A stretch of DNA of 37,760 nt from the IMG/VR virus record IMGVR_UViG_3300019776_000630, positions 1-37,760 of that record, one strand, 5' to 3'. The position numbers and the translations under genes were made by a program. Below the pieces are notes generated by a model. That model worked only from the letters and a program-made list of their open reading frames with translations. It ran no database searches and was not told the DNA's origin. This document shows, one piece after another, positions 2,991-35,537 of this stretch (positions are counted from its first letter, which is position 1; each line of letters begins with the position of its first letter). The DNA comes from a virus.

Positions 2991-3467
2991 ATGTCAAAAT
3001 ACACCCCCGAGTTAGTTGAAACCCTGTGTGAGAATATCGCACAGGGCTTTACTATTTTGGAGGCTTGTGAATCGGTTGGTATAAGTGAAAGAACTTTTTA
3101 CAATTGGATAGAAGATGAAAAAAAAATTCAGTTTTTGCAGTCATTTAAAAAAGCAGAACAGGATAAACTGAAATTGCTTAAAGATAGGCGCAAGGAAAAG
3201 GCATTGAAAGGGATAAATTGCTTGCTAGAGCCATTTACTTATGACGAGGTTACTGTTATCGAGAAAGAAACAGAAATGGGCTTTACAAGGGAAACAAAGA
3301 CGGTAACTAAAACAATACTTCCAAACGTTACGGCTTTGATTTTCGCTATGTCTAATGATATGCCAGATCAGTTTAAAAGGGCTGATAAAGAAGTGACAGA
3401 AGAAGTTAAGGATGAAAAGAAAGTGATCAATATCGGGTTCAAGAAAACAAAGCAAAATGAATTGTGA
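2991..3467 (+). CDS. terS: Terminase small subunit
   Basis: The 158-residue protein has an N-terminal helix-turn-helix (about residues 8-38, ACESVGISERTFYNWIEDE) of the homeodomain-like type used by small terminases to bind phage DNA. A long helical region and a basic C-terminus follow. It overlaps the large terminase gene by 11 bases, the classic arrangement. It should select the packaging start and regulate the motor. Confidence 0.8.
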   Translation: MSKYTPELVETLCENIAQGFTILEACESVGISERTFYNWIEDEKKIQFLQSFKKAEQDKLKLLKDRRKEKALKGINCLLEPFTYDEVTVIEKETEMGFTRETKTVTKTILPNVTALIFAMSNDMPDQFKRADKEVTEEVKDEKKVINIGFKKTKQNEL

Positions 3468-4722
3468 TGACATTACATTGAATGAGAAGTTTGCTATACT
3501 TTTTGATATTCCGAAACAAGTCAGGTATATAATCTGTTCAGGAGGCAGGAATAGCTCAAAGTCATGGACTTTTACTTTATGGTTGGCTATTATGATGTAC
3601 AAGTATTGTAGAAATATTTTCTTCTCAAGGTATACAATGACCAGTGCAAGAAAATCAATCATTCCTGAATTCATCAAGAAACTTTCATTACTCAGTATAG
3701 AAGACGAATATAAAATCAATAAAAATACTGTAGAATCTAAAAGGCAAAAAGGAGGCTATCCTGAATCAAGGATAGACTTCACTGGATTGAAGGCATCCAG
3801 TGGGACTCAGACTGCGAATCTGAAGGGCATGAGCGATTATTCAATATGTGTAGTTGATGAGGCAGAAGAGTTGCGAGACGAAAAGCTTTTTGATGATCTT
3901 GACTTTTCAATTAGACATGAAGAGCATCAGGATTTGATTTGCGTGATTAGAAATCCTACTGATAAAAATCATTTCATAGATAAAAAGTTCTTTTCTGATC
4001 GTGGGGTTTCTTATGATTTTAATGGAGTTAAGGACGATACCATCTACATCCATTCAACATATCTCGATAACATCGACAATATCAAGCCTGTATACTTGGC
4101 TCAAATAATGAAGATGAAAGAAAAGAACAGAGAAAAGTACATTCACGTTTTCGGCGGGAAACCAAGGGAAACAATGGAAGGCATCATATTCACAAATTGG
4201 AAATATGCTGATGAGCAAGACCTAAAAGACAGGTCGATTCATAAAGGCATATTCTCACTTGACTTTGGGTTTGATCACTTTGATGCTTTGATGTATGTTG
4301 TGAACGACAAGAAAAGGCTTAAGACATATTGGGAGGAAAAACTATATCAGAAAGGACTAAAAACAAGAGAACTCGCGGCATTATTAAAACCAATCGTTGG
4401 GAATAATATAGTTGTCTGTGATTGTGCTAACCCAAGAACAATAGACGATCTTTGCGAATATGGAATCAAGGCCATTCCAGTAGTTAAGGGAATTGTTTTA
4501 AATGAAATTGAAACACTAAAAGACGATTGGAATATCATTGTTTGCGGGGAATCACCAAATCTTGTTGACAACCTGAACAAGTATAGAACGAAGAAAGGGG
4601 TTATCGTAAAAGAAGATGATGATGCCATAGATTCAGCACGATACGGATGGAAAACACTTGAGGACGTAGCTGTGACTAAAGTAAAACCTGTAAAAATAAT
4701 GGGAATTGGGAGAGCAAGATAA
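3457..4722 (+). CDS. terL: Terminase large subunit (PBSX/XtmB-like)
   Basis: This 421-residue packaging motor has an ATPase domain with a Walker A-like loop GGRNSSKS (residues 29-36) and a Walker B at ICVVDEAEE (130-138, acidic pair D134/E135). The nuclease domain has RNase H-like acidic residues at D269 (SLDFGFD), D322 (VCDCANP) and D388-D392 (DDDAID). The length and order fit the PBSX family. It translocates DNA into the prohead and cuts it. The start overlaps the small subunit, and the end overlaps the next gene by 17 bases. Confidence 0.92.
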   Translation: MNCDDITLNEKFAILFDIPKQVRYIICSGGRNSSKSWTFTLWLAIMMYKYCRNIFFSRYTMTSARKSIIPEFIKKLSLLSIEDEYKINKNTVESKRQKGGYPESRIDFTGLKASSGTQTANLKGMSDYSICVVDEAEELRDEKLFDDLDFSIRHEEHQDLICVIRNPTDKNHFIDKKFFSDRGVSYDFNGVKDDTIYIHSTYLDNIDNIKPVYLAQIMKMKEKNREKYIHVFGGKPRETMEGIIFTNWKYADEQDLKDRSIHKGIFSLDFGFDHFDALMYVVNDKKRLKTYWEEKLYQKGLKTRELAALLKPIVGNNIVVCDCANPRTIDDLCEYGIKAIPVVKGIVLNEIETLKDDWNIIVCGESPNLVDNLNKYRTKKGVIVKEDDDAIDSARYGWKTLEDVAVTKVKPVKIMGIGRAR

Positions 4723-7266: not shown

Positions 7267-9065
7267 GAAGGCTAATTGTTTCTGGGATTACATTGGACAT
7301 TGACGAAAAAACGGCCATCGGACTTGACGCCCAAAGTTACGATATAAAAGACCCCAGCAAAAGAAGGGTAACTGTATCGAATTCGTTCTCGATACCCATT
7401 ACAGATAAGAATATGGGTGCTATAGGATACTTCGGAAACGTATCATCTAACTACGATACCGTATATAATGATCTGTTTTGCACTTATGAAGTCCAAGGTG
7501 TAAGGCTCATAGATAATGGGAAGATAATGGTAGAAGAAGTATCGGACAGGATATCAATGAAGATATTTGATCGAAAAACGATATGGGATAAGCTGAAGGA
7601 TCATAAAATAACTGACAACTTCGATGCAATGATAATGTATCTTAGGCAGTCTGCATGCATATGGACAGGACCACAAGAATATGGGAAGACATTTTCAGAT
7701 ATGCTTGGCATTCACTCGGATTCATCGAAAGATATATTCATCCCAATGTTTTGGGGTATGGATTCTGAAAATGAAACACCTGTACAAATAGTATTTAATT
7801 CTGTCGATGGTCATTCAGCTAGATTCGCCATGAAGTATAAGCGATTCTTCATGTATCTGAATATGGCATTTGCAACAACAGGATATAGTTTTGTACTTGA
7901 TGATGGGATATTCACAGATACAGTCTCTTCTCAGTTATCGTTTCGTATTCCTCAATTATCTTATGCCGGCGAATTAGCCACCAATCCAAATATATTCTCA
8001 GGTACAGTTATAGGAGAGAATACCGGAGGAGACTTCTATCTCGAGACAACAGAACAACATTCGACACCACCAATAGTAGGGGGCAGAATCAAGAGTGCTA
8101 CTATAAAGTATAGAGGGATGGGATATATTGATGTTAGAACCAACTACGATGGAACACAGGTTGATTTTGGCCATAACCAATGTAACCCAGACCCAACAGT
8201 ATGGACTGAAGTAGACATAACTAGACAAGTTATATGCTCTGATTTCTACATCAAGATATATTGCCATGATTTATTTCATCCCGGCACACTAGAGTTTTCG
8301 ATATCGGTGACTATGCAGAGTGTTGATCATCTGGTATTTCAAAATAGTGAAGATTATGCTAAGACAAAAGTAAAAGGACTTAAGGATATTACAGCCTATG
8401 ACATCGTAATGACGTTTATGAATCACTTCAATATCATCAAGGAAGAAAGTGATAAGAAAATCCTTATGCGAAGATTTGACGATATTAATAATGCTGATTC
8501 AGTAGATTGGTCGGATGGATGGATAGGAACACCAAAGCAATCTCCATTGATTCAAGACATAAAGCAATTCAATTACATCAAATATAAAAACGTAGCTGAT
8601 GGACTTGATTCAAGGATGGGAGGGATAACCATATCTTGTTTGAATAAAAACATACCAATTGAAGGTGATTTATTCGAAATTAATGGCTGTTTCCCAAAAG
8701 TAAAGCTTAATTGCTTAGATTTTTCAGATGAAAAGACAATCGAAGGATTAGTAACGATAATTCCAACAACTACGTTTAAAGGGGTAAACGTATACGATTA
8801 TACCACTGCTCATCAGTCTCAGCTGAATGTTTGCGCGAATTATTCTCTCGTGAATGAATATGTCACTTATGCGAGAATGATAAATAAGCCTTTGGTTGTT
8901 AATTGGAAGCGGAATCTAAGCCTTTACGACTACTTTACATTTTCATTTTATCGAAAATATTTCATAAAGCAGCTAGGTGGATACTTTTTCGTAAATAAGA
9001 TAAGCGGATACAATCCAGAAAATAGTACAGGAGGTACAGATATTGAACTCATAAAAATAGTATAA
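7263..9065 (+). CDS. Probable tail-tip / tail-associated protein
   Basis: This 600-residue protein begins with a small beta domain (LIVSGITLDIDEKTAIGLD). A segment follows that is often seen at the start of Bacteroidetes phage baseplate or tail-tip proteins (RRVTVSNSFSIPITDKNMG, about residues 34-52). The remainder is beta-rich. It sits between the distal tail candidate and the tape measure gene, overlapping each by 1-4 bases. It likely forms the tail tip hub. No peptidase or lysozyme motif is visible. Confidence 0.65.
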   Translation: MRRLIVSGITLDIDEKTAIGLDAQSYDIKDPSKRRVTVSNSFSIPITDKNMGAIGYFGNVSSNYDTVYNDLFCTYEVQGVRLIDNGKIMVEEVSDRISMKIFDRKTIWDKLKDHKITDNFDAMIMYLRQSACIWTGPQEYGKTFSDMLGIHSDSSKDIFIPMFWGMDSENETPVQIVFNSVDGHSARFAMKYKRFFMYLNMAFATTGYSFVLDDGIFTDTVSSQLSFRIPQLSYAGELATNPNIFSGTVIGENTGGDFYLETTEQHSTPPIVGGRIKSATIKYRGMGYIDVRTNYDGTQVDFGHNQCNPDPTVWTEVDITRQVICSDFYIKIYCHDLFHPGTLEFSISVTMQSVDHLVFQNSEDYAKTKVKGLKDITAYDIVMTFMNHFNIIKEESDKKILMRRFDDINNADSVDWSDGWIGTPKQSPLIQDIKQFNYIKYKNVADGLDSRMGGITISCLNKNIPIEGDLFEINGCFPKVKLNCLDFSDEKTIEGLVTIIPTTTFKGVNVYDYTTAHQSQLNVCANYSLVNEYVTYARMINKPLVVNWKRNLSLYDYFTFSFYRKYFIKQLGGYFFVNKISGYNPENSTGGTDIELIKIV

Positions 9066-11614
9066 TGGCAGAAAACAAAATAGTGACATTGGCTGAAATT
9101 CAGTTCAATGTAGAGAGTGCAAAGCAGCAAGCAGAACAATTAGTGGTTTCAATTGCCAACCTTAGAAAAGAGAGAACTGCTCTCGATAAGACAGACGAAA
9201 CTGCAGCAAAAAGAGTTGTAGAAATAGATGCCGACTTAAAGTCATTGACATCCACCTACAAAACACTTACAAATACAATCATAGCTGTAAATGATGCCAG
9301 AAACAACGAGAAAATAACAATCGATTCTATAGAGAAGGCGAATAGAGGGATGCAAGCTGCTCAAAAGCTTGAAAATCTAGCAACTGCTGAAGGTGTGCAG
9401 CGATCAAATGAATTAAATGCAGCTATCAATAAAAATACTCAAATAATAAAGGAGAATTCAAGCGAAGCAAAGCAACAAGCCTTAAATGTAGGTAATTATG
9501 GAAAGAAATTTGATGCACTCGGAAATTCAATCACTCAGATAACACGTGAAGCCCCAGCATTTGCCAATAGCTTGAACACTGGATTTATGGCTATTTCCAA
9601 TAATATTCCTGCATTGTCTGATGCAATCGGAGGACTTATTGAGAAGAACAAGCAACTTAAGGCAGAAGGACAGCCAGCAAAGAGTATTTTATCACAAGTA
9701 GCATCATCATTCCTGTCTTGGAATACTGCTATAAGCGTAGGAGTTACGCTATTGACTATTTATGGGGGAACTTTCTTCAAATGGTTGACCACACTAGGTG
9801 CTGCTCCAAAAGCGTTAAATGCAGCTCAAGTAGCGCATGATAACTACAGGGACGCCATGACTGCAAGTAGAAAGGATTCTGAAAAGGATATTGTTCACTT
9901 GAAATTGATGTATGAAGCAACACAAAACACATCAAAAAGCATAGAATCTAGGACTGCTGCTGTCAAAGAGATGCAGAAAGAGTATCCATCATATTTCAAG
10001 AATATGACAGCAGAGCAAATAATGCTTGGTGGCGCACAGAAGCAATATGAAGAACTCACTCAGGCGATCTTGAACAATGCTAAAGCAAAGGCATTAGAGC
10101 AGAAAATATACGAAAATGAGAGTAAGAAGATCGATCTTGAAACAAAACAATCTACACAACTCGCATACTACGAAAAATTAGGCAAGGATATCACAGCGGG
10201 ATACGAAAAACTAAAGAATTCAGTAGTACCATCCGATGTGCGCGATGCTTTCTTAGTTGCTATAAAAAAACAAGAAGGCGTTAGGGATCAATACAAAAAA
10301 GACTTACTTAAAACGGCCGATGAAATTAAAACAATCACAGATGTGAATAAAAAACTGGCTGATAAGGTAGATACTAAAACCTACATCGCAAAGGAAGAGC
10401 CAGATAAAAAAGTCAAAGAAACTCCACTTCCAAGGACGGAGGCATACTTACGCGAACTGTACAAAACTCAAGAAGACTTGCTTGATAAATCACTCGAAAA
10501 GGAACAGGTTAAGATAGAAAACAACTATAAGGAAACCAAAGCCAGAATCGAGAAGATGGAGAAAGAGGATACTAAACGAAAAATACTCACAACAGAGGGG
10601 AGAGCTGCGGCAGAAGAGGCAATTTCAAATTTAGGATTAGTCAAAGAAAAAAAACTAAGACAAGCTAATGCGGCTGATGAGGTAGTAGCTCTTTCCGAAA
10701 GTCTTGAGAGATATAAGACTGTATCTGATGCTAAATTGAAGAAAGATCAGCTAGATACTCCTAGAACTGTAGCCGAAAGAGAGCAAAGGTTGCTCCATAT
10801 TTTTGCACTAGAAAGGAATATAGACGAAAAGCGCGTTCAGTCTGGTGAAATATCACAAGCCGAGGCCAACAAAAGGCATGAAGCTGCAATGTTCAAATTC
10901 AATTCCACTATAATGGATATGAATATTGCATTTGAGGAACAGGAACGCAAGCGAAAAATAGACGTTGAAAAAACAGACTACGATAACAAACTTTCAGTTC
11001 TTAAAGAATACCAATCCGAGCATACTAGACTGAGGATAGAACATCTCGAAGAACAAAAACAGATCGAGATCGCTGCTGCCAATAAAATAGGGGCAGATGT
11101 TACTTTGATTGAAGAGAAATATTCGAAAGCCAAAAAGAATATATACGCTTCAGAGTGGGCTGCAAAGCTTGGATTTGCAAAAGAATTTCAACAGGCTGCA
11201 ACTGGAATCGCTTCCGAAGGAACAATAATGGCCAAAGTAGTAGCAGGGACAGGAATTGTAATAGATACTATTCAAGGCTCAATGAAAGCTTGGGCAGGAC
11301 ACGCAGAGAATCCAATACTCGCTGGAGCATTGGTTGCTCTAAATATAGCCCAAGGTGTTTCTGCCTTAAGTAAACTGGCATCAGTAAACACAGATGTGAC
11401 AAGCAAAAGCGTAAAATCGAGTGGGCTATCTGGAGGTCAAAACTCAATGTCCATGTACCAAGGATCACAAGCACAAATTGGTAACGGAATAGTTCAGCGA
11501 TCAGTATCAGGTATGCAAGAGATTGCCCCAGTTCAAACTACTGCAATAGTAATTGATCAAGTGACTGCGGCACAGCAAAAGCAGACACAAAGCGACTTTA
11601 TAAGCATATCGTAA
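9065..11614 (+). CDS. Tail tape measure protein
   Basis: The 849-residue product starts with a long coiled-coil region (about 1-140). A Gly/Ser/Ala-rich and hydrophobic stretch follows (about 180-240, including WNTAISVGVTLLTIYGGTFF), then extended helical coiled coil to about 690, and a Gly/Ala-rich C-terminal part. This is the standard composition of a siphovirus tape measure. By length it would specify a tail of roughly 130 nm at about 0.15 nm per residue. The start overlaps the previous stop (TAATG). Confidence 0.85.
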   Translation: MAENKIVTLAEIQFNVESAKQQAEQLVVSIANLRKERTALDKTDETAAKRVVEIDADLKSLTSTYKTLTNTIIAVNDARNNEKITIDSIEKANRGMQAAQKLENLATAEGVQRSNELNAAINKNTQIIKENSSEAKQQALNVGNYGKKFDALGNSITQITREAPAFANSLNTGFMAISNNIPALSDAIGGLIEKNKQLKAEGQPAKSILSQVASSFLSWNTAISVGVTLLTIYGGTFFKWLTTLGAAPKALNAAQVAHDNYRDAMTASRKDSEKDIVHLKLMYEATQNTSKSIESRTAAVKEMQKEYPSYFKNMTAEQIMLGGAQKQYEELTQAILNNAKAKALEQKIYENESKKIDLETKQSTQLAYYEKLGKDITAGYEKLKNSVVPSDVRDAFLVAIKKQEGVRDQYKKDLLKTADEIKTITDVNKKLADKVDTKTYIAKEEPDKKVKETPLPRTEAYLRELYKTQEDLLDKSLEKEQVKIENNYKETKARIEKMEKEDTKRKILTTEGRAAAEEAISNLGLVKEKKLRQANAADEVVALSESLERYKTVSDAKLKKDQLDTPRTVAEREQRLLHIFALERNIDEKRVQSGEISQAEANKRHEAAMFKFNSTIMDMNIAFEEQERKRKIDVEKTDYDNKLSVLKEYQSEHTRLRIEHLEEQKQIEIAAANKIGADVTLIEEKYSKAKKNIYASEWAAKLGFAKEFQQAATGIASEGTIMAKVVAGTGIVIDTIQGSMKAWAGHAENPILAGALVALNIAQGVSALSKLASVNTDVTSKSVKSSGLSGGQNSMSMYQGSQAQIGNGIVQRSVSGMQEIAPVQTTAIVIDQVTAAQQKQTQSDFISIS

Positions 11615-11687: not shown

Positions 11688-12674
11688 ATGAAGGTACTCA
11701 TTGTCGGAGAATACGGCAAAGACATCAAATCAAATGTATTTCAGCTAATTCGCGATGGTGACGAATTGATGATTGATTCATGCGGAGGCACACTGAAGGA
11801 TGGGAAAGCATCTTTCGATTCGCTTGTTGGATCAGATATTTCTGGGACTGTGTATGGTGCTTGCTACAGTTCTGCAACACTATCACTTATGGCTTGCAGA
11901 AAAAGATTTGGTACTCCAAACTCTAGTTACTTGATTCATTTTCCAGTTGGTAGATTCGAAGGTGATGCAGAGGCAATGAAGGCGTATGCGCAAGAGCTAG
12001 AAGCCATCCAATCGTCAGTTGTTGATATTTACGAAAAAAATCTTCTCATCCCTAGAGAGGAAATAATGGCATTGATGTCGGAAAATAAACGAATCGATGC
12101 TGTCGAAGCTAAGAGAATCGGATTAATACAAGAAATTATAAACCTAAACGATATTAAAATGAGTTTTAAAGGAGAATTCGGAAAACTACTGAACGATGTA
12201 AAAATGATATTCTCTGATGTTACTGCGCCAGAAGAGAAAATGAGCATCACGCTTCAAACAACTTGCTCTCAGGAATTGACTTTCGATGTGGATACCCAGC
12301 CAGAGATCATTGTTGGCACTGGCGTAACATTGGCAGGAAAGGCATTCGACGGCGTTTTTGTATGTTGTGATCAAAAATACACTGTTGTCGCTGGCAAAGT
12401 TTCAATGATCGAACCGACAGAAGAAATTGATCAAGCTGCAATGGATTCTATGCAAATGGAATTGAAAGGAGTCATCGAAACAATGACAACATTCAAAACG
12501 AAAGAACAAGAACTCATGCAATCAGTCCAATCGAAAGATCAGGAAATTGCAGCACTTACTGCAAAGGTGACAGAACTGGAGAAAATGAACTTCACAGAGA
12601 AAAAACCAGAAGATGTGCCGGCAAACGAAGATTCAAAACAAGTTATGTGGAAATATAAAAACAAAAACAAATAA
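11688..12674 (+). CDS. ClpP-like prohead protease with C-terminal scaffold-like domain
   Basis: Residues 1-150 match the ClpP/S49-like phage prohead protease fold. The nucleophile region is GACYSSATLSLM with Ser61 as the likely nucleophile, the histidine is H84 in LIHFP, and an acidic candidate is D137 in RIDAVEAKRIGLI. Residues 150-328 are a separate region ending in a long coiled coil (about 245-300), consistent with a built-in scaffold as in lambda C/Nu3. It stands immediately before the major capsid gene and behind a strong promoter. It should shape and mature the prohead. Confidence 0.82.
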   Translation: MKVLIVGEYGKDIKSNVFQLIRDGDELMIDSCGGTLKDGKASFDSLVGSDISGTVYGACYSSATLSLMACRKRFGTPNSSYLIHFPVGRFEGDAEAMKAYAQELEAIQSSVVDIYEKNLLIPREEIMALMSENKRIDAVEAKRIGLIQEIINLNDIKMSFKGEFGKLLNDVKMIFSDVTAPEEKMSITLQTTCSQELTFDVDTQPEIIVGTGVTLAGKAFDGVFVCCDQKYTVVAGKVSMIEPTEEIDQAAMDSMQMELKGVIETMTTFKTKEQELMQSVQSKDQEIAALTAKVTELEKMNFTEKKPEDVPANEDSKQVMWKYKNKNK

Positions 12675-17368: not shown

Positions 17369-17581
17369 ATGTCGTTAACTTTGGATCAAAATAGAATTGA
17401 ATTACTGAAAATAGACATAGAATCGATCCTGATTGATGGCATTTTAGTAATTAAATTACTTAAATTTTTCGGAGACGTATATTTAAATGGCCAAAAGCCT
17501 AAAAATGACTGCAATATGTGGCTCAGACAATATCATCTCAGGTTAAAAGCAAAATTTAAAAACGAAATAAATGGGACTTAA
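17369..17581 (+). CDS. Small unknown protein before the portal, 70 aa
   Basis: ATG follows an AT-rich leader. The product has a hydrophobic/amphipathic helix (IDIESILIDGILVIKLLKFF, about residues 15-34) and a basic C-terminal half. Its last 11 bases overlap the portal start, so the two are probably coupled. No family is recognised. Confidence 0.65.
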   Translation: MSLTLDQNRIELLKIDIESILIDGILVIKLLKFFGDVYLNGQKPKNDCNMWLRQYHLRLKAKFKNEINGT

Positions 17582-18848
17582 CGCAATACAACTACAGCCT
17601 TCATTATTAACCAGAGTGAATCTATCGGTTTACTCTGGACTTTGGGATTCATCTCAAGACAGCATTGGAAAACCAAATGAGATTTTGGTATATGGCGAAA
17701 ATAACGAATATCCAGAAGTAATCGATAGGCTGATTTCCAATTCATCTACGGCTAAGTGTGTTCGAGATGTCATGGCTAAGTTTATTCATGGATTGGGTTT
17801 TGAAAACGAGGCTTTAAACGACATAATTACAGGACAAAACCAATTTAATGATGATATAAATCTTGTTGAGTTAGATCGATCTATATCTTCAGATTTGGCA
17901 TCTTATAATGGGTTTTATTGCTTTATTTCAAGGTCGATAAACTTTCAGGTTTCTAAATCTGAAAAAATGAAGTTCGGGGCTATAAGACTAGGTAAGACTG
18001 ATGACAATGGCCGCATATCGTATGCAGTGTTGAGACAGAAAAGGTATCAAAAACTGGACTTTCTTAGAGCTTATTCATTATTTTCAGAAAGTAAAGAGAC
18101 GATTTCTGAAAGGATTGAAAAGTTAAAGGCATCAAAAAAAGCTTATCAAGGTGAGTTTTTCGTTGGGTATTTTGACATGGCCAATATATATCCGATTAGT
18201 CCGTTTCACGCTACTCAATACGACATGGATTCTGAATCTCTGATTTCAGTCCACAGAAACACTGAATTAGCCAATGGCATGAGTCCAAAAACAATAATTA
18301 CAGTAGCTGAAGCAAGTGAGTATGACGAAAGAACAGATAAAGAAGGAAATACAATAAAAACTCCAATCGAAGGAGGCATTGCTGGCGCTGTAAAAGAATT
18401 TGTCGGTACTTCTGGAGCAAAAGTAATGGTTCTATCTACCAAAGTAAATGAAGAAACTGGCAAGATTGATCAAGACGGAAGTTTTATCGCAACAAATATC
18501 GCTTCAAATATTGACAGCGAAACATACGACCAGTGGGAGAAAGCATTCGAGAATCACATTCGCCGACAAGCTTGCAATATGCCAAGCATCCTTTTCGAGT
18601 ATGAAACAGGTAAATTGGGCGGAGGAACAAAAGCAGAAGATATTATGACAGCAATAGAGTTCTACAACAGTCAAGTGAATGACTATCAAGAATTCAAGGC
18701 TAAATGCTATCGTAAAATGTTCAAGAACAGTATCAATGATATCCTTAAATCCGAAGCAGCGAAAAAAGACGGATTTAAAATTAAAAATATAAACTATGAT
18801 TCTTTCATTCGAACAACAACAAGCAATACTTCCAATCAGTCCAAATAA
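17571..18848 (+). CDS. Portal protein
   Basis: The 425-residue product has the character of Bacteroidetes siphovirus portals. An N-terminal alpha/beta region includes YNGFYCFISRS near residue 113. A central alpha/beta segment includes YPISPFHATQYDMD near 207. A long C-terminal helix has HIRRQACNMPSILFEYETGKLGG near residues 325-347, a pattern I associate with this portal type. It would form the dodecameric DNA gate at one capsid vertex. Placement about 14 kb from the terminase and 4 kb after the capsid gene is unusual. Confidence 0.75.
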   Translation: MGLNAIQLQPSLLTRVNLSVYSGLWDSSQDSIGKPNEILVYGENNEYPEVIDRLISNSSTAKCVRDVMAKFIHGLGFENEALNDIITGQNQFNDDINLVELDRSISSDLASYNGFYCFISRSINFQVSKSEKMKFGAIRLGKTDDNGRISYAVLRQKRYQKLDFLRAYSLFSESKETISERIEKLKASKKAYQGEFFVGYFDMANIYPISPFHATQYDMDSESLISVHRNTELANGMSPKTIITVAEASEYDERTDKEGNTIKTPIEGGIAGAVKEFVGTSGAKVMVLSTKVNEETGKIDQDGSFIATNIASNIDSETYDQWEKAFENHIRRQACNMPSILFEYETGKLGGGTKAEDIMTAIEFYNSQVNDYQEFKAKCYRKMFKNSINDILKSEAAKKDGFKIKNINYDSFIRTTTSNTSNQSK

Positions 18849-22451: not shown

Positions 22452-22523
22452 AGCGGCGTAGAGTGTGGCACTCGATAGACACCATGGCGCTATTGTACGT
22501 TGGTTCGATTCCAGCCGCCGCCA
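22452..22523 (+). tRNA. tRNA-like fold 2 with an 11-nt anticodon loop
   Basis: GCGGCG (22453-22458) pairs with CGCCGC (22516-22521), with an A-C mismatch at the end pair. TA follows, then GAGT/ACTC with an unusually short loop containing GG. GATAG (22474-22478) pairs with CTATT (22490-22494) around an 11-base loop. The T arm GTTGG/CCAGC has the canonical loop TTCGATT. The last base is discriminator A, followed by CA. The acceptor and T halves are tRNA-like, while the D and anticodon arms are not normal. Confidence 0.45.
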
Positions 22524-22559
22524 CAAATTCTTTTCTTGCTTTCCATTTTTTTAGTTTTA

Positions 22560-24179: not shown

Positions 24180-24590
24180 ATGAAAAACAAGCTATTTGTA
24201 TGCATGAGCCACACGCTCAATGAAGATCAGAAAAACGGGTTTATTTACCAGTTCGGAGAGACTGAGTTTATTGACATGAAAGACGTGAATACTGAATTGA
24301 AAGAAAAATGCAGTAACATCCCTGCAATGGCTACGTTGTCGGAATTGAGAAAACTTGCATTTGATGTAGTTGAAATTGCAAGAGAAAACGGATGTACTCA
24401 TTTTTTTCTAACCGGCGAGCCAACGTTGTCATTTTGGGCGAACTCTGAAGCTAACTATGGATTCTACGGAGATTCTATGGTATGCGTTCAGTCTACCACG
24501 GAACGAGTATCACAAGATTCAGTCCAGCCAGATGGTACTGTAATCAAGACTCAAGTATTCAAGCATGTACAATGGAGAGAAATGTTTTAG
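24180..24590 (+). CDS. Csx20-like protein, candidate phage ring nuclease
   Basis: The 136-residue protein resembles the CRISPR-associated Csx20 family in order and spacing: LFVCMSHTLNEDQ near residues 5-17, CSNIPA near 44-49, FFLTGEPTLSFW near 75-86, TTERV near 106-110, and DGTVIKTQVFKHVQWRE near 118-134. Csx20 is a small CARF-like protein of type III CRISPR loci. As I recall, it has been counted among ring nucleases that cleave cyclic oligoadenylate. In a phage, such an enzyme would remove the alarm signal of type III immunity. The catalytic residues are not proven here. It lies in the same short region as the Tad2-like gene. Confidence 0.55.
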   Translation: MKNKLFVCMSHTLNEDQKNGFIYQFGETEFIDMKDVNTELKEKCSNIPAMATLSELRKLAFDVVEIARENGCTHFFLTGEPTLSFWANSEANYGFYGDSMVCVQSTTERVSQDSVQPDGTVIKTQVFKHVQWREMF

Positions 24591-24601
24591 GCATTGCCTC
24601 C

Positions 24602-24645
24602 ACCCTCCAACGGTTCAAGCAGGTTCGATTCCTGCGGAGGGACTA
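24602..24645 (+). ncRNA. tRNA acceptor/T-arm mini-helix
   Basis: CCCTCC (24603-24608) pairs with GGAGGG (24636-24641). The T stem GCAGG (24619-24623) pairs with CCTGC (24631-24635) around the canonical T loop TTCGATT. Only ten bases (AACGGTTCAA) stand where D and anticodon arms should be. ACTA follows the stem. This is the top half of a tRNA without a decoding arm: a remnant, an attachment-site-like tRNA 3' end, or a tRNA mimic. Confidence 0.5.
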
Positions 24646-24689: not shown

Positions 24690-25640
24690 ATGGAACCATA
24701 TAATACAGAATATTGCAAGAAAAATACAAGCAGGGCTGTAGCTGCATGTATGACATTAAGAACGATACAAACGGGGTCGTTCGAGAACAAATATTCATCG
24801 AGTGAGTCATCGTATAATGTAGATGAAAAGCTGGCGCTAATAGAGGAAATAGGGTATTTTTGCATACCAGTTCCTGAATTATTCGATACATTCGAAGACG
24901 GATTTGGGAAAATACCGTATAGTGTAAAATATGTGCATGTTGCGCAGGATGAAGAAACCGGCATATTGCCTATTTCTGATTTTTCTAAAATAGCCAATAA
25001 TCTTGGTGTCAAGTTTTCATTCGAGGGTAGCTTTGCTAGTTTCGAGAATTCGAATGAATGCCTTCTTACATTCTACGGGAATGAAAATGCAGTATTGATC
25101 CCGTTTGGATCTTCAGCAGTTCTAAGCACGCCTGAAGGAGATTTCAAGGTGAAATTCAACGGAAACAAAGACGCATGGATGACCAAGTGGTATTCAACCA
25201 GATTTTTTACCATAGAGGTTCACGAGAAACCTTCTCGTGAGAATAAGTTTAATGGGATTTATAAAATAAAATTAGCCGACAACTGCCGGCTGACTGAATA
25301 TGCTGCACTAGACCATGTGGGCGAACCACCAATAAAAGAAACACGAAGCACATCCGTTGATATTGAATCAGAATATGAAAAAATAAAACGTCAAGGGTAC
25401 GGAGATCTTTTCGAGATGTTGAAAGACATCAGTGGAGAGTCAAAAAATTCAGCAAAAACTAGATACGCTGAATCGAGTATCGTAAATTGGTGTTTCGTAA
25501 AATGCGAAATCGACCAATCCAAAGATTATGGTATAAAAAAAGACAGTGTTTCACTATATGGATATGGGAATGTAGTGATAACTAATATCGGATGTTGGAT
25601 CCCTAAAAATCACAAGCTAGTATGTAGGAGAAAGATATGA
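24690..25640 (+). CDS. Unknown protein, 316 aa
   Basis: The largest unknown in the accessory region. It has mixed alpha/beta composition. A helical N-terminus is followed by beta-rich text (about 105-210) and a Lys/Glu helical part near 225-260, with Cys scattered and no clear metal motif. There is no signal peptide or membrane segment. It overlaps the next gene by 4 bases and sits just after the tRNA-like mini-helix. I do not recognise it. Confidence 0.7.
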   Translation: MEPYNTEYCKKNTSRAVAACMTLRTIQTGSFENKYSSSESSYNVDEKLALIEEIGYFCIPVPELFDTFEDGFGKIPYSVKYVHVAQDEETGILPISDFSKIANNLGVKFSFEGSFASFENSNECLLTFYGNENAVLIPFGSSAVLSTPEGDFKVKFNGNKDAWMTKWYSTRFFTIEVHEKPSRENKFNGIYKIKLADNCRLTEYAALDHVGEPPIKETRSTSVDIESEYEKIKRQGYGDLFEMLKDISGESKNSAKTRYAESSIVNWCFVKCEIDQSKDYGIKKDSVSLYGYGNVVITNIGCWIPKNHKLVCRRKI

Positions 25641-26632: not shown

Positions 26633-27646
26633 ATGGGAACAGAAGTAAGAAAATTTGAAGAGATTCTGAGTGATGAATCTATAAAACAGAAATTCATTGA
26701 CATATTAAAGGCTAATGCAAATTCATTTACGGCTAATTTGGCGGTTATAGTAAGCAATAGCGATGCTTTGAGCAAATGCGAGCCAATGAGCATTATCCGG
26801 TGCGCGGTTGAGGCTGCGTCTATGGGATTGCAACTTAGCCCGGGACTTGGACAGGCAGCAATTGTCCCCTATTTCAATAAGGGATCGCAGGTTGCGCAAT
26901 TTCAGATCATGTACAAAGGATTGATTCAACTTTGTATTCGTTCAGGTCAATACGCCACAATTTCGGCTACTGAAATTTACGAAGGTCAATTGGTTTCAGA
27001 GAATCCGCTAACTGGATTCGTTTTTGACTTCACAAAGAAAAGAAGTGAAACGATCATAGGATACGCAGCTTATTTCAAGCTTTTGAATGGATTTGAAAAA
27101 ACAGTTTATGCTACAGTTGAAAAACTAAACGCACACGGGAAAAGATTTTCAAAAACATATCAGAAAAATTATGGCCAATGGGTTGATGATTTTCATGCAA
27201 TGTGCCTAAAAACTATCACAAAGATGTTGCTAGATAAGTGGGGTGCAAAATCAATTGAAATGCAAAAGGCAATCCGATTCGATCAAGCATCAGTATCCGA
27301 GAATGGAGAGCCTGAATATGTTGATGTTGACAATTTGGAAGATGAAAAAAAGAAGTTGCCAGCACCAGAATTGACAATTACAGACAATCAATTCATAGAA
27401 ATGTTGGCAAAACTGCCAAATAAGCCAGTATTAGTGCTTGAAAGATTCAATACCCGCCAACTATCCGAGCAACAAAAAGAGCAGTTAGAAACGGCCGTTT
27501 CATCTCTGATTAAAGAACTAAGCTACGACATTGAAAAGATGCCGTTAATTGATTCGATTTGCGAAAAATACCCAGTTCAGATTGAAATGCTTACAGGTTG
27601 CGGGCTAATGCTTGATGAAAACGGGAAAGTAAAACAAGCATTCTAA
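26633..27646 (+). CDS. recT: RecT-family single-strand annealing recombinase
   Basis: The 337-residue protein has the RecT pattern: an N-terminal helical part with CAVEAASMGLQLSPGLGQAAIVPY (about residues 57-80), IMYKGLIQLCIRSGQY (about 93-108), the strand YAAYFKLLNG and HAMCLKTITKMLLDKWG near 190. Beyond residue ~245 a C-terminal extension of about 90 residues has no obvious RecT counterpart. It anneals ssDNA exposed by the exonuclease encoded next, overlapping by 1 base. Confidence 0.9.
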   Translation: MGTEVRKFEEILSDESIKQKFIDILKANANSFTANLAVIVSNSDALSKCEPMSIIRCAVEAASMGLQLSPGLGQAAIVPYFNKGSQVAQFQIMYKGLIQLCIRSGQYATISATEIYEGQLVSENPLTGFVFDFTKKRSETIIGYAAYFKLLNGFEKTVYATVEKLNAHGKRFSKTYQKNYGQWVDDFHAMCLKTITKMLLDKWGAKSIEMQKAIRFDQASVSENGEPEYVDVDNLEDEKKKLPAPELTITDNQFIEMLAKLPNKPVLVLERFNTRQLSEQQKEQLETAVSSLIKELSYDIEKMPLIDSICEKYPVQIEMLTGCGLMLDENGKVKQAF

Positions 27647-28263
27647 TGGAACAGCGCAGCGAAGAATGGTTCGAATCAAGACGCGGGAAGTTCACAGCGT
27701 CTGAGATTTTCAAGATTTGCAAGCCAAAAGGATTTGGGGATACTGGCATAACTTACGTCAAGGAAAAAGTTGGCGAACATTTCGGATCATTCAAACCCCA
27801 AGCATCAGCAAAATCGTTACAGTGGGGGATTGACAATGAACCGATTGCTAAGGAATATTTCAAATTTAATTATTTTGAAGATATTGAAGAGATCGGATTC
27901 TTAGAACTTGACAATAACTCAGGATGTTCACCAGACGGATTCGTTATCGGAGAAAAAGCAGGGATTGAGATAAAATGTCCAGAAAATCCTGCAAATCATG
28001 TAACACACCTACTTTTGAAAGATCAAAACGATCTTAAAAAAGAATGCGAAAACTACTATTGGCAAATTCAAATGTGCTTATTTGTCACTCAATTTGATTG
28101 TTGGTATTTCATTTCTTTCGATCCGCGCTGCAATGGTGCTGAAAAAATGAAAGTTTTGAAAGTTTTTCCAGAACCCAAAGATCAAGAATTGCTGAGAAAC
28201 AGAATAAAAGAGGCAGTTGAATTGAAAAGAGAAATGATTAAAACTATTAAAACCTCACTGTAA
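27646..28263 (+). CDS. YqaJ/lambda-exonuclease-type nuclease
   Basis: The 205-residue protein has the YqaJ viral recombinase core: RSEEWFESRRGKFTAS at the N-terminus, E65 in WGIDNEPIA, D97 in SPDGF, and the E108-I-K110 motif (IEIKCP). This is the PD-(D/E)xK arrangement of lambda exonuclease relatives. It resects dsDNA 5' ends for RecT. The stop and the next ATG overlap (TAATG). Confidence 0.9.
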   Translation: MEQRSEEWFESRRGKFTASEIFKICKPKGFGDTGITYVKEKVGEHFGSFKPQASAKSLQWGIDNEPIAKEYFKFNYFEDIEEIGFLELDNNSGCSPDGFVIGEKAGIEIKCPENPANHVTHLLLKDQNDLKKECENYYWQIQMCLFVTQFDCWYFISFDPRCNGAEKMKVLKVFPEPKDQELLRNRIKEAVELKREMIKTIKTSL

Positions 28264-31624: not shown

Positions 31625-32443
31625 ATGGATTTAGGCCACATAAAAACCCACAGAGAGCTTATGAATAAAGCATTCTACAAAGATTCTGAAAAGGTTCATT
31701 TGTGGCTGCATCTATTATTAAAAGCTAATTGGTCGGAGCGAGAGGAAATGTTCGCAGGTAAACCTATAAAATGCAAAGCGGGTCAATTTACCACTGGACG
31801 GAAACAACTGTCAATCGAAACAGGTATCAACGAAAGTAAGATAGAGAGAATACTAACCTACTTTGAGAAAATCGAACATCAAATTGAACAACAAAAAAGC
31901 TCTGTAAATCGCTTAATATCAATAGTTAACTGGTGTAGATTTCAGCAAAGTGAACAACGAAATGAACAACAAGTGAACAGCGAGCGAACAACAAGTGAAC
32001 AACGAGTGAACACACTTAAAGAAGTTAAAGAAGTTAAAGAAAGTAAAGAACATAAAGAAGTAAAGAATAAAGAAGGTAATGTTCTTTTCGATGTTGAACC
32101 GATCCAAAAGCCTAAAAAAACGCCAAAGCCAAAACCAGAAAAAAAAATATACGGAGAATTTAAAAATGTTTCATTCACAGATTCAGAATATCAAAAGTTG
32201 ATTTTAAAATACACAGAGCAAACAACAAAATCAGCAATTGAAATTTATTCTACTTGGAAAGAATCAAAAGGAGTGAGCAGACTTTCAGATTACAGCGGAA
32301 TACTCGCAAATGATGGATGGCCATTCCAAAGAGCAATTGAGAGAAATAAACCATCAGCATCCGACCAAGCGATAAAGAAACAACAAGGATTAAGCGAGGA
32401 ACAGAAACGAATGTATGAACTTCAAAGGCAACACAGCAAATGA
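31625..32443 (+). CDS. Replication initiation-like protein with winged-helix N-terminus
   Basis: The 272-residue protein has an N-terminal domain like phage replication/DnaD-type proteins (HRELMNKAFYKDSEKVHLWLHLL near 8-32, then GQFTTGRKQLSIETGINESKIERIL, an HTH). A low-complexity Gln/Glu/Lys linker follows (about 105-175, including KEVKEVKESKEHKEVK), then a C-terminal helical domain. It overlaps the DnaB gene by 4 bases. It probably loads helicase or marks the origin. Confidence 0.75.
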   Translation: MDLGHIKTHRELMNKAFYKDSEKVHLWLHLLLKANWSEREEMFAGKPIKCKAGQFTTGRKQLSIETGINESKIERILTYFEKIEHQIEQQKSSVNRLISIVNWCRFQQSEQRNEQQVNSERTTSEQRVNTLKEVKEVKESKEHKEVKNKEGNVLFDVEPIQKPKKTPKPKPEKKIYGEFKNVSFTDSEYQKLILKYTEQTTKSAIEIYSTWKESKGVSRLSDYSGILANDGWPFQRAIERNKPSASDQAIKKQQGLSEEQKRMYELQRQHSK

Positions 32444-33822
32444 GAAAACAACAAACCATAAACTATTCCGACATAATAGGATTAGATGCCCCAAATAGCC
32501 CCGAATTAGAATCAAATCTACTTTGTGGAGTAATCAATCGACCATCTGTATTAAGTGAGCTAGAATCGTTTATTTCGACTGATTGTTTCTATGAAGACTT
32601 CCACAAAACAATTTGGAAGGCAATCGTAAACCTAAACAACGAAGCAAAGCACATAGATATAATCACTGTGCATACTGAGGCGAATAGGCTTGATCCATCA
32701 ATCACCATGTACCAAGTTGCACAAATCACCGCAAAAAACTCATTATTCGAGAAAGAAACGATTGAATTTGCAAAACTAATCAAGGAATACGATCTAAAAA
32801 GAAAAGTACAATTGGCATCAGTGAAAACACTCATGCGCTTAATGACTAATGATGACATTTCGGATATTATGGCTGAATCCGAAAACTCAGCAAGCGACAT
32901 AATGAATTCAACTGTCTCAAATTCAACTACGCTCGAAATTAAAGAAATTATCATAAAGGCTGAACTTGAACTTAAAGATAGAATTGAAAATAAGGGAGCA
33001 ATTGGAATAAAAACAGGGATCACCGGCCTTGATATGATGACTGGCGGATTAAAACCAAATGAACTAATAGTAATCGGAGCGAGACCCGGTATGGGGAAAA
33101 CTGCTGTTTTGCTGAAATTCATAAAAAATGCATCGCAAAATGGATTAAGCACAGCCATTTTTTCGCTCGAAATGGATTCCACTAGGTTAGTGGATCGAAT
33201 GACAATCGCAGAAAGTGGGGTAGATGCCTACAAATTCAGGAATGGATTTCTTGATAATCGTGAAATTGGAGAAGTATTGAAAGCAAATGAACGATTGGCT
33301 ACCATGAAAATGGTTATTGACGATAAGCCAAATCAATCCATCAACTACATCAGAGCAGTTTGCCGAAAACGAAAAAAAACAAAAGGACTTGACTTGATCG
33401 CAATTGACTATTTGCAACTTGTCAGCACAAGTGAATCGAAAAAAGGTAATAGGGAGCAGGAAGTTGCTGAAATATCAAGAGGTTTAAAAATGTTAGCAAA
33501 AGAGCTTAAAATACCAGTAATCCTACTTTGTCAACTGAACCGAGAGGTCGATAAGAGAGCCGACAAAACCCCTATGATGAGCGATCTTCGAGAGTCTGGA
33601 GGCATAGAGCAAGATGCGGATGTAATTATGTTCTTGCTTAATCAATTCAAGTACACTGAATCAGATGAAGACAAAAACAAGCTGGCTATAATACTTGCAA
33701 AGCAAAGAGACGGAGCGATTGGACGCATTGAATGCTGGACGAATGATTCTCTCACGCAAATACGAGATATTCAAGACGGATCACCTGAATATCTTAAAGG
33801 CGATACAAATACCCCATTTTAA
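32440..33822 (+). CDS. dnaB: Replicative DNA helicase, DnaB family
   Basis: The 460-residue protein has the DnaB N-terminal helical domain and a RecA-like motor with Walker A GARPGMGKT (residues 213-221), Walker B LIAIDYLQL (about 319-327, D323), and conserved LCQLNREVDKR and SGGIEQDADVI motifs. It unwinds DNA at the phage fork, with the upstream initiator-like protein as probable partner. Confidence 0.95.
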   Translation: MRKQQTINYSDIIGLDAPNSPELESNLLCGVINRPSVLSELESFISTDCFYEDFHKTIWKAIVNLNNEAKHIDIITVHTEANRLDPSITMYQVAQITAKNSLFEKETIEFAKLIKEYDLKRKVQLASVKTLMRLMTNDDISDIMAESENSASDIMNSTVSNSTTLEIKEIIIKAELELKDRIENKGAIGIKTGITGLDMMTGGLKPNELIVIGARPGMGKTAVLLKFIKNASQNGLSTAIFSLEMDSTRLVDRMTIAESGVDAYKFRNGFLDNREIGEVLKANERLATMKMVIDDKPNQSINYIRAVCRKRKKTKGLDLIAIDYLQLVSTSESKKGNREQEVAEISRGLKMLAKELKIPVILLCQLNREVDKRADKTPMMSDLRESGGIEQDADVIMFLLNQFKYTESDEDKNKLAIILAKQRDGAIGRIECWTNDSLTQIRDIQDGSPEYLKGDTNTPF

Positions 33823-33832
33823 AACTAAAACT

Positions 33833-34000
33833 ATGACGGAAAATAAATTACTGCTAATCATGCAAAGCTTATTAATCGCTCAGAATGAAATTAATAGTTC
33901 ATCGATAGAATTATCTGAGATCCCATTGTCGAATGATTTGGATAAGATAAATTCTGATTTAATGGAAGTCATTCAAAAACTTAAAAAACTAAGAAAGTGA
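33833..34000 (+). CDS. Small unknown protein, 55 aa
   Basis: I chose the ATG at 33833 (after AAAACTAAAACT) because the longer frame lies inside the helicase gene. The product is helical with a Lys-rich C-terminus. The TGA at 33998-34000 overlaps the GTG start of the next gene. Confidence 0.6.
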   Translation: MTENKLLLIMQSLLIAQNEINSSSIELSEIPLSNDLDKINSDLMEVIQKLKKLRK

Positions 34001-34479
34001 AAAAAATAATCATAGCAATCGACCCAGACGTAGATAAAAGCGGGGTGGCTGTTTGGGAGGATGATAATTTAGAGATTTGTTCATGGCGTTTTGGTGATTT
34101 TATTAATTACATTTCAATAGGAATTTGCGATAATTCAGATTTAATTTTTATTGTCGAGTCTGGTTGGTTGAACAAATCAAATTGGCACAAAACCAAAGGA
34201 ATGACAATCGCATCGGTATCAAAGATTGGAGAGAAAATAGGCGCAAATCATCAAGTAGGAAAGTTGATCGTTGAGATTTGCAAATACTACGGAATTGAAA
34301 CCATCGAGCAAAAACCACTCTCAAAGATTTGGGGCAAAGGCAAAGATAAAATCAGCCATGAAGAGCTAAGTTATTTTGTGCCAAACTTACCGAAAAGAAC
34401 AAATCAAGAGGAGCGCGATGCAATTTTGCTACTTTGGAATTATCTGAAAAAACCAATTAAAAAAATGCCTAATAAATGA
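33997..34479 (+). CDS. RuvC-like Holliday junction resolvase
   Basis: The start is GTG within GTGA, coupled to the previous stop. The 160-residue protein has the RNase H-like nuclease pattern: D9 in IIIAIDPDVDKSG, E54 in IFIVESG and D141 in EERDAILLLW. Phages use such resolvases to clear branched DNA before packaging. It overlaps the methyltransferase start by 4 bases. A terminator is not evident. Confidence 0.75.
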   Translation: MKKIIIAIDPDVDKSGVAVWEDDNLEICSWRFGDFINYISIGICDNSDLIFIVESGWLNKSNWHKTKGMTIASVSKIGEKIGANHQVGKLIVEICKYYGIETIEQKPLSKIWGKGKDKISHEELSYFVPNLPKRTNQEERDAILLLWNYLKKPIKKMPNK

Positions 34480-35537
34480 CTAAAGAACACAGATTCCCAT
34501 ACGAATGGACTTTGAAGGATGCAGTTTTTACGAAAGACAAAGGCAAAGTTTTCTCTTGTTTCGCTTGTGGTGGTGGATCGACAATGGGATATAAATTGGC
34601 AGGTTTCGATGTGATTGGCTGCAATGAAATTGATCCAAAAATGATGTCGGCTTACAAAGAAAACCATGATCCGAAATATGCTTTTTTAGAGCCCATCCAA
34701 ACATTTAAACTGCGTGAAGATTTGCCACAAGAATTATACGAGCTTGATATTTTAGACGGATCACCACCATGCAGCAGTTTTTCAATGGCAGGAAATCGTG
34801 ACAAAGATTGGGGCAAAGACAAAATATTTAGAGAGGGCCAGAAAAAACAAGTTTTAGACACGTTATTTTTCGATTTCATTGATTTGGCGAAAAAACTACA
34901 GCCAAAAGTAGTAATAGCAGAAAATGTAAAAGGTTTGCTGATTGGTGATGCGAAAAAATATGTAATTGAAATATACAAGCAATTCGATGAGGCTGGATAT
35001 TATTGCCAACATTTTCTTTTGGATGCTTCGAAAATGGGTGTACCTCAGAAAAGAGAAAGAGTTTTCTTTATTTGCCTTCGAAAAGATTTAGCCGGACAAT
35101 TTCTTTATCAAAAAGATATGTTTACGATTATGCCTAAATTGGGATTGGAATTCAAAGAAAGAATGATTCCATTTTCTGAAATAGAATCATTTAATGAAGA
35201 GCCGTTATTCGATCATCCATCACCTAGTTGTTTCGATGGTTGGAATAGTTGTTTACCTGGTGAATCTCTGTATTCGGATAAGAAATTTGACAGTTACAAA
35301 ATAAATCCTAAAAAAGTATTAGGCACTCTTACGGCATCACCATCCAAGGGAAGATCAGGGCCACTTCATTATTCAGTTTTTCGAATGCTCACAAAATCCG
35401 AAGTATTCAAGGCTTGTACGTTCCCATTGGATTACAAATGCGATGATCCATATTATTTTGGAGGCATGAGCGTTCCCCCAGTAATGATGGCGCAAATAGC
35501 AAGTGAAGTTTACAAACAATGGTTATCAAAAATATGA
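34476..35537 (+). CDS. C5-cytosine DNA methyltransferase
   Basis: The 353-residue protein has the C5 methyltransferase motifs: motif I FACGGGSTMGYKLAGFDVIG (residues 29-48), catalytic C99 in GSPPCSSFS, ENV at 149-151, and QKRERVFFI plus a late GGMSVPP (motif X-like). No cognate restriction enzyme is nearby, so it is probably an orphan that guards phage DNA against host cleavage or marks it. The start overlaps the resolvase stop. Confidence 0.9.
   Translation: MTKEHRFPYEWTLKDAVFTKDKGKVFSCFACGGGSTMGYKLAGFDVIGCNEIDPKMMSAYKENHDPKYAFLEPIQTFKLREDLPQELYELDILDGSPPCSSFSMAGNRDKDWGKDKIFREGQKKQVLDTLFFDFIDLAKKLQPKVVIAENVKGLLIGDAKKYVIEIYKQFDEAGYYCQHFLLDASKMGVPQKRERVFFICLRKDLAGQFLYQKDMFTIMPKLGLEFKERMIPFSEIESFNEEPLFDHPSPSCFDGWNSCLPGESLYSDKKFDSYKINPKKVLGTLTASPSKGRSGPLHYSVFRMLTKSEVFKACTFPLDYKCDDPYYFGGMSVPPVMMAQIASEVYKQWLSKI

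Follow-up and report, generated by a model that had tools for sequence, protein, structure and literature searches.

The locus considered here raises the question whether a tailed phage encodes a ring nuclease of the Csx20 family that would act against type III CRISPR immunity. The window (the whole stretch of DNA analyzed, an IMG/VR virus record and tailed-phage contig of 37,760 bases) contains an intact, uninterrupted reading frame that runs from an ATG at 24180 to a TAG at 24588-24590 (Table 1). The original prediction described its product as a Csx20-like protein and a candidate anti-type III ring nuclease, on the basis of several motif blocks occurring in the family order.

Assignment to the Csx20 family

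The window protein matches the NCBIfam profile NF040559 (CAS_Csx20) over profile positions 1-123 of 124 with E=1.2e-11 and 45.1 bits, and the PADLOC Csx20 model PDLC01384 with E=1.1e-11. As the NF040559 score is below the curated cut-off of 70 bits, which corresponds to equivalog annotation, the protein is named here Csx20-like and not an NCBIfam Csx20 equivalog. The same cut-off is also missed by PADLOC-named Csx20 proteins encoded near Cas10 (47-49 bits). To exclude an effect of amino acid composition, the protein and its shuffled versions were scored with our own profile of 17 other Csx20 proteins, from which the window protein had been left out: the real sequence gives 43.9 bits, and none of 20,000 same-residue shuffles exceeds 11.0 bits. 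Alignment to 16 Csx20 proteins by hhalign covers residues 1-135 with probability 98.1 and E=7.1e-14, and BLASTP comparison with the Csx20 of a Persicobacter plasmid, where the gene belongs to a type III CRISPR locus, shows 29% identity over 134 columns (E=3e-12, referring to this one single pairwise comparison). The profile search suggested in the original prediction has thus yielded significant full-length matches in NF040559, PADLOC and hhalign and, judged by these comparisons, the window protein is a full-length divergent homologue of Csx20.

Other families give little. Searches of Pfam and PHROGs with the window protein returned nothing noteworthy; in particular, the Pfam search contained no match to DUF1874 (AcrIII-1/Crn2), and the NCBIfam search no match to Csx15, for which reason membership in the Csx15 family was rejected. 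Matches to the RlmN N-terminal region and to the protein A 'B domain' in Pfam, NCBIfam and PDB sequences were short, with E from 0.01 to 1.4, and were rejected as chance ones.

Table 1. Features of the window: the csx20-like gene, its motifs and flanking phage genes
Feature	Position	Strand	Remark
csx20-like gene	24180..24590	+	136 aa; candidate viral cA4 ring nuclease
S10-H11-x-L13-(x3)-Q17, N-terminal motif after strand 1	24207..24230	+	kept from Csx20; S, H, Q in 17/17 other Csx20 proteins
S45-N-I-P48 motif	24312..24323	+	WSNIP in Csx20; W replaced by C44 here
T78-G79-E80-P81-T82 at the Csx20 QGDFG loop	24411..24425	+	changed; only G strictly kept
S105-T-T-E-R109 motif	24492..24506	+	kept
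F127-K-H129-V-x-W-R133, C-terminal motif	24558..24578	+	kept
terminase large subunit (TerL)	3457-4722		upstream of csx20-like gene
tape measure	9065-11614		upstream of csx20-like gene
head maturation protease	11688-12674		upstream of csx20-like gene
portal	17571-18848		upstream of csx20-like gene
RecT	26633-27646		downstream of csx20-like gene
exonuclease	27646-28263		downstream of csx20-like gene
DnaD-like loader	31625-32443		downstream of csx20-like gene
DnaB	32440-33822		downstream of csx20-like gene
Holliday junction resolvase	33997-34479		downstream of csx20-like gene
DNA methyltransferase	34476-35537		downstream of csx20-like gene

Conserved and altered residues

The motif blocks are indeed present in the family order, SH-L-Q / SNIP / G / STT-R / FKH-R, with the QGDFG loop changed. 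Across 17 Csx20 proteins, 25 columns reach a conservation of 90% or more, and the window protein keeps 14 of them, including Ser10, His11, Gln17, Ser45, Gly79, Thr106, Thr107, Arg109, Phe127, His129 and Arg133; counting Phe85 as a kept column depends on the placing of a 4-residue gap. Every Ser, His, Thr and Arg conserved in Csx20 at this level is present. The altered positions are several hydrophobic ones, the QGDFG loop (here TGEPT), a Trp replaced by Cys44, and a Gln replaced by Lys41, the latter two corresponding to Trp40 and Gln37 in the numbering of L010, a canonical Csx20. Conserved residues of Csx20 have been reported to cluster at the modelled AMP site (PMC12409355).

The QGDFG loop is nearly constant across canonical Csx20, and its replacement by TGEPT therefore makes binding without cleavage, or another substrate, conceivable for the window protein. 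At the same position the nearest relative, Csx20 from the Bacteroidota genome G015, has VGDQT, and the sister clade of canonical Csx20 has MGE[FHM]TF, so the loop is variable within the wider family.

Predicted fold

The AlphaFold2 model of the window protein, built on 16 sequences, is of moderate confidence (pLDDT 77.6, pTM 0.66; low at 81-100). It is a Rossmann-like alpha/beta sandwich with the order strand-helix-strand-helix-helix-strand-helix, followed by two long C-terminal strands, and the order of elements is identical in the model of L010, which was predicted without the window protein (pLDDT 95.7). The Rossmann-like fold expected in the original prediction is therefore the one modelled, at the confidence given above and with mixed Rossmann-type matches.

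Foldseek found no PDB match below E 0.001 for the window model, whose own best structural matches are non-CARF proteins. Its top rows (KaiC and carbamoylase in Foldseek, aspartate racemase and ATP-grasp in VIA-align) were set aside as generic Rossmann-type or spurious, and for this reason the canonical L010 model was used for fold comparison. Structural neighbours of the latter are mostly CARF/SAVED proteins, such as SAVED-CHAT 8tl0 (Z 7.7, 3.2 A over 100) and the ring nucleases Sso2081 (8htw; Z 7.2, 3.0 A over 104) and Sis0455 (7z56; Z 6.3, 4.5 A over 106), with further matches to Cam1, Card1, Csm6, Cap4 and Cap5. For the window model, CARF 8y75 (Z 6.5, 3.7 A over 113) and SAVED 8tl0 (Z 7.0, 3.2 A over 105) stand among many unrelated Rossmann-type chains and are not decisive alone; likewise, the absence of Sso2081 among the matches listed for this model says little. 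The only strong viral structural match, common to both models, is A0A5Q2WBQ4 (128 aa), with E=6.5e-9 for the window model and 8.8e-8 for L010.

Cellular relatives

The tree, which comprises 38 proteins, joins the window protein to the G015 Csx20 (support 98/95) and places the two within the canonical Csx20 clade (support 96/93). The branch of the window protein is long, 2.07 changes per column, and thus its exact place in the tree is less certain than the family itself. The G015 protein is also the best relative by sequence (37% identity, E=4.2e-15) and scores 88.9 bits on NF040559, above the cut-off.

Among 395 sampled Bacteroidota genomes, 25 have a match to the Csx20 profile at E <= 0.001, and two of these matches, one being that of G015, exceed the cut-off. 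Most of the remaining matches form the sister clade, whose proteins start with MLxNLSNHP. Both sister-clade members that were scanned are called Csx20 by PADLOC (PDLC01397), and in 5 of the 7 genomes tested a Cas10-palm match shares the contig with the sister-clade gene, at a distance of approximately 5-10 kb.

In the region L053:9237-19679, the csx20 gene of G015 lies a few kb from the BREX genes PglZ and BrxL, and is adjoined by a same-strand 217-aa ORF without a known family, whose end overlaps the csx20 frame if the latter is taken in its longer version. The 48-kb contig of this gene contains no Cas10 match; weak Cas10-palm matches are found on other contigs of G015. In genome G041, a 578-aa protein (L042:1216-2949) has a Csx20-like SNHP domain at its C-terminus, apparently fused to a CARF-HEPN effector, so that the effector and a likely ring nuclease would be combined in one chain; PADLOC holds a CARF_HEPN_CSX20 model.

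Csx20 in other phages

The suggestion of the original prediction that a phage Csx20 could be undescribed does not hold, as Csx20 has already been counted in 4 of 28,114 phage genomes, in a single sentence and without naming the four in the main text (Hoikkala et al. 2025, PMC12409355). Five further viral homologues were identified here, in Fusobacterium phages JD-Fnp1, JD-Fnp6 and JD-Fnp7, in MW202458 (a Siphoviridae genome from Manatee Spring) and on the IMG/VR contig L024, and some of them are perhaps among those four. On NF040559 the proteins of JD-Fnp1, JD-Fnp6 and MW202458 score 48, 43 and 30 bits, respectively, and the JD-Fnp7 homologue matches our own Csx20 profile. In the existing records these four Csx20-like proteins (L057, L058, L061, L060) are annotated as hypothetical or not annotated. 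The L024 protein is an ordinary Csx20 (163 bits), close to Csx20 of Nautiliaceae, on a contig with terminase and endolysin genes.

Viral Csx20 proteins occupy three separate spots in the tree, which, in a small sample with two long branches, suggests repeated transfer of Csx20 between cells and phages. None of the viral homologues identified here is close to the window protein in this tree. Searches of IMG/VR with peptide patterns and a combined TTER...FKHVxW DNA pattern gave no close viral relative beyond L024, and tblastn with the window protein against 50,697 phage records returned nothing, the relatives having surfaced only with other Csx20 queries. No experimental study of phage Csx20 was found in the literature searched. 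The idea of a phage Csx20 is already on record, and the window protein adds a further, divergent example.

Genomic context

The csx20-like gene sits between the structural and replication modules and is flanked by phage genes on both sides (Table 1); it is virus-encoded. Since TerL is nearest to those of Bacteroidota phages (the best match, Nonlabens phage P12024L, has 41% identity), the host is likely a member of Bacteroidota. No Cas10 match is present in the whole record, and no CRISPR genes were seen with the csx20-like gene. This is expected for a viral copy, the vicinity of Cas10 being the usual setting of the family and not a property of the protein.

The region at approximately 21.8-26.6 kb contains small ORFs without recognised families. 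Among 21 loci around RecT relatives, many of them short or distant, none matches the proteins of this region, while RecT itself does match; this pattern fits a variable accessory region. A portal-based search for phage relatives gave none.

Several other elements are seen around the gene. A 316-aa ORF downstream (24690-25640) has no recognised family. Just past the csx20 stop codon, at 24603-24642, CCCTCC and GGAGGG enclose the T-arm GCAGG TTCGATT CCTGC. The element corresponds to a tRNA reduced to its acceptor and T-arm half, the D-arm and the anticodon arm being absent; its folding energy is -17.1 kcal/mol (z -2.2), and ARAGORN detects no tRNA here. A minimal tRNA-like RNA, a remnant and an attachment site are the alternatives that we propose for it. 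A second tRNA-like element, at 22453-22526, has the T-arm GTTGG TTCGATT CCAGC and the acceptor-like GCGGCG/CGCCGC; it scores 15.6 bits with the Rfam tmRNA model, far below the threshold of 47, and its folding energy is no better than that of shuffles.

Proposed function and alternative readings

Csx20 is the commonest stand-alone ring nuclease of type III loci, where it accompanies cA4 effectors; a representative cleaves cA4 in vitro in EDTA, that is, without metal, and also cleaves cA3 at high enzyme concentration, with a preference for cA4, and anti-CRISPR action is known for viral ring nucleases such as AcrIII-1 (PMC12409355). Because of its homology to Csx20, cleavage of cA4 is the most likely activity of the window protein, and we consider it probable that this is a viral ring nuclease of the Csx20 type, its cleavage of cA4 serving to weaken type III CRISPR signalling. 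The divergent candidate enzyme, encoded by a tailed phage whose host is probably a member of Bacteroidota, would be made during infection, presumably as a CARF-like dimer that binds cA4 (cyclic tetra-adenylate) produced by the host Cas10 and, needing no metal, cuts it to small linear products. Effectors that depend on cA4 for activation (Csx1, Can and similar nucleases) would consequently not be switched on, and the phage could go on replicating. An AcrIII-1-like strategy on the Csx20 scaffold would be the best explanation of these observations, and 'candidate' anti-type III ring nuclease, as in the original prediction, appears to be the right wording. A more ambitious version, in which TGEPT is a rebuilt binding loop marking a distinct phage Csx20 subclade that has been adapted to faster action or to further cyclic nucleotides, so that a single phage protein disarms type III CRISPR as well as a CBASS-like system, seems quite unlikely.

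Among the alternatives, the window protein could act as a sponge that binds cA4 without cutting it, as has been discussed for Csx15; we regard this as rather unlikely. The changed QGDFG loop and the replaced Trp and Gln would agree with a sponge, and so would the reports of good cA4 binding and slow cA4 cleavage by Csx15, and of the frequent occurrence of phage sponges directed at other defences that use cyclic nucleotides (PMC13148439). However, the other conserved polar residues (those listed above except Gly79 and Phe127) are all kept, the Bacteroidota sister clade found near Cas10 likewise departs from QGDFG (MGE-x-T), and type III systems make much cA4, which has been argued to make a sponge less useful (PMC13148439). 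The same loop change is compatible with a phosphodiesterase or binder whose target is not cA4-type III CRISPR and that acts on cA3, cA6, CBASS or Panoptes signals. In line with this are the cA3 cleavage by Csx20 at high enzyme levels (PMC12409355) and the location of the closest cellular relative, that of G015, near BREX genes and on a contig without a Cas10 match; but cA4 is the preferred substrate of the Csx20 examined in the literature (PMC12409355), and G015 does carry weak Cas10-palm matches elsewhere, so that this reading also appears unlikely.

It is very unlikely that the gene is a cellular passenger (moron) that adjusts the type III response of the host itself, for instance by limiting self-toxicity, with no role in counter-defence. 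Csx20 is mostly a cellular CRISPR accessory (PMC12409355) and the nearest homologue is cellular, but the csx20-like gene has no CRISPR genes alongside, and removal of cA4 would favour the phage regardless. Finally, the long branch could indicate a chance match or a decayed gene remnant, which we hold to be extremely improbable: a chance match is refuted by the score far above all shuffles, and the frame is intact, with conserved residues at both ends.

Comparison with known systems

With Csx20 (NF040559; PADLOC PDLC01384/01659/01397) the window protein shares full-length homology, the motif order, the predicted order of structural elements and the length class. It differs in having only 24-37% identity, a score below the NCBIfam cut-off, the QGDFG to TGEPT and W to C replacements, and in its origin from a phage in which no cas genes are recognised. 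The occurrence of the family in phages and the proposed role are common to the window protein and the phage Csx20 of Hoikkala et al. 2025 (PMC12409355). Csx15, a CARF-superfamily relative that binds cA4, gives no NCBIfam match to the window protein, and has been reported absent from phages (PMC13148439). The proposed strategy, destruction of cA4 by a virus, would be shared with AcrIII-1/Crn2 (DUF1874), a viral cA4 ring nuclease and anti-CRISPR of a different protein family. The viral SAVED ring nuclease AcrIII-2 and the phage and plasmid ring nuclease Crn4b also belong to different families, and removal of cyclic oligoadenylate is proposed here likewise.

Viral removal of cyclic oligoadenylate is one of the main ways to beat type III CRISPR; AcrIII-1 is its best-studied example, and viral AcrIII-1 has been found to be faster or broader than cellular Crn1. 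The window protein, together with the other viral homologues, provides a concrete set for asking whether viral Csx20 is faster or broader than its cellular counterparts.
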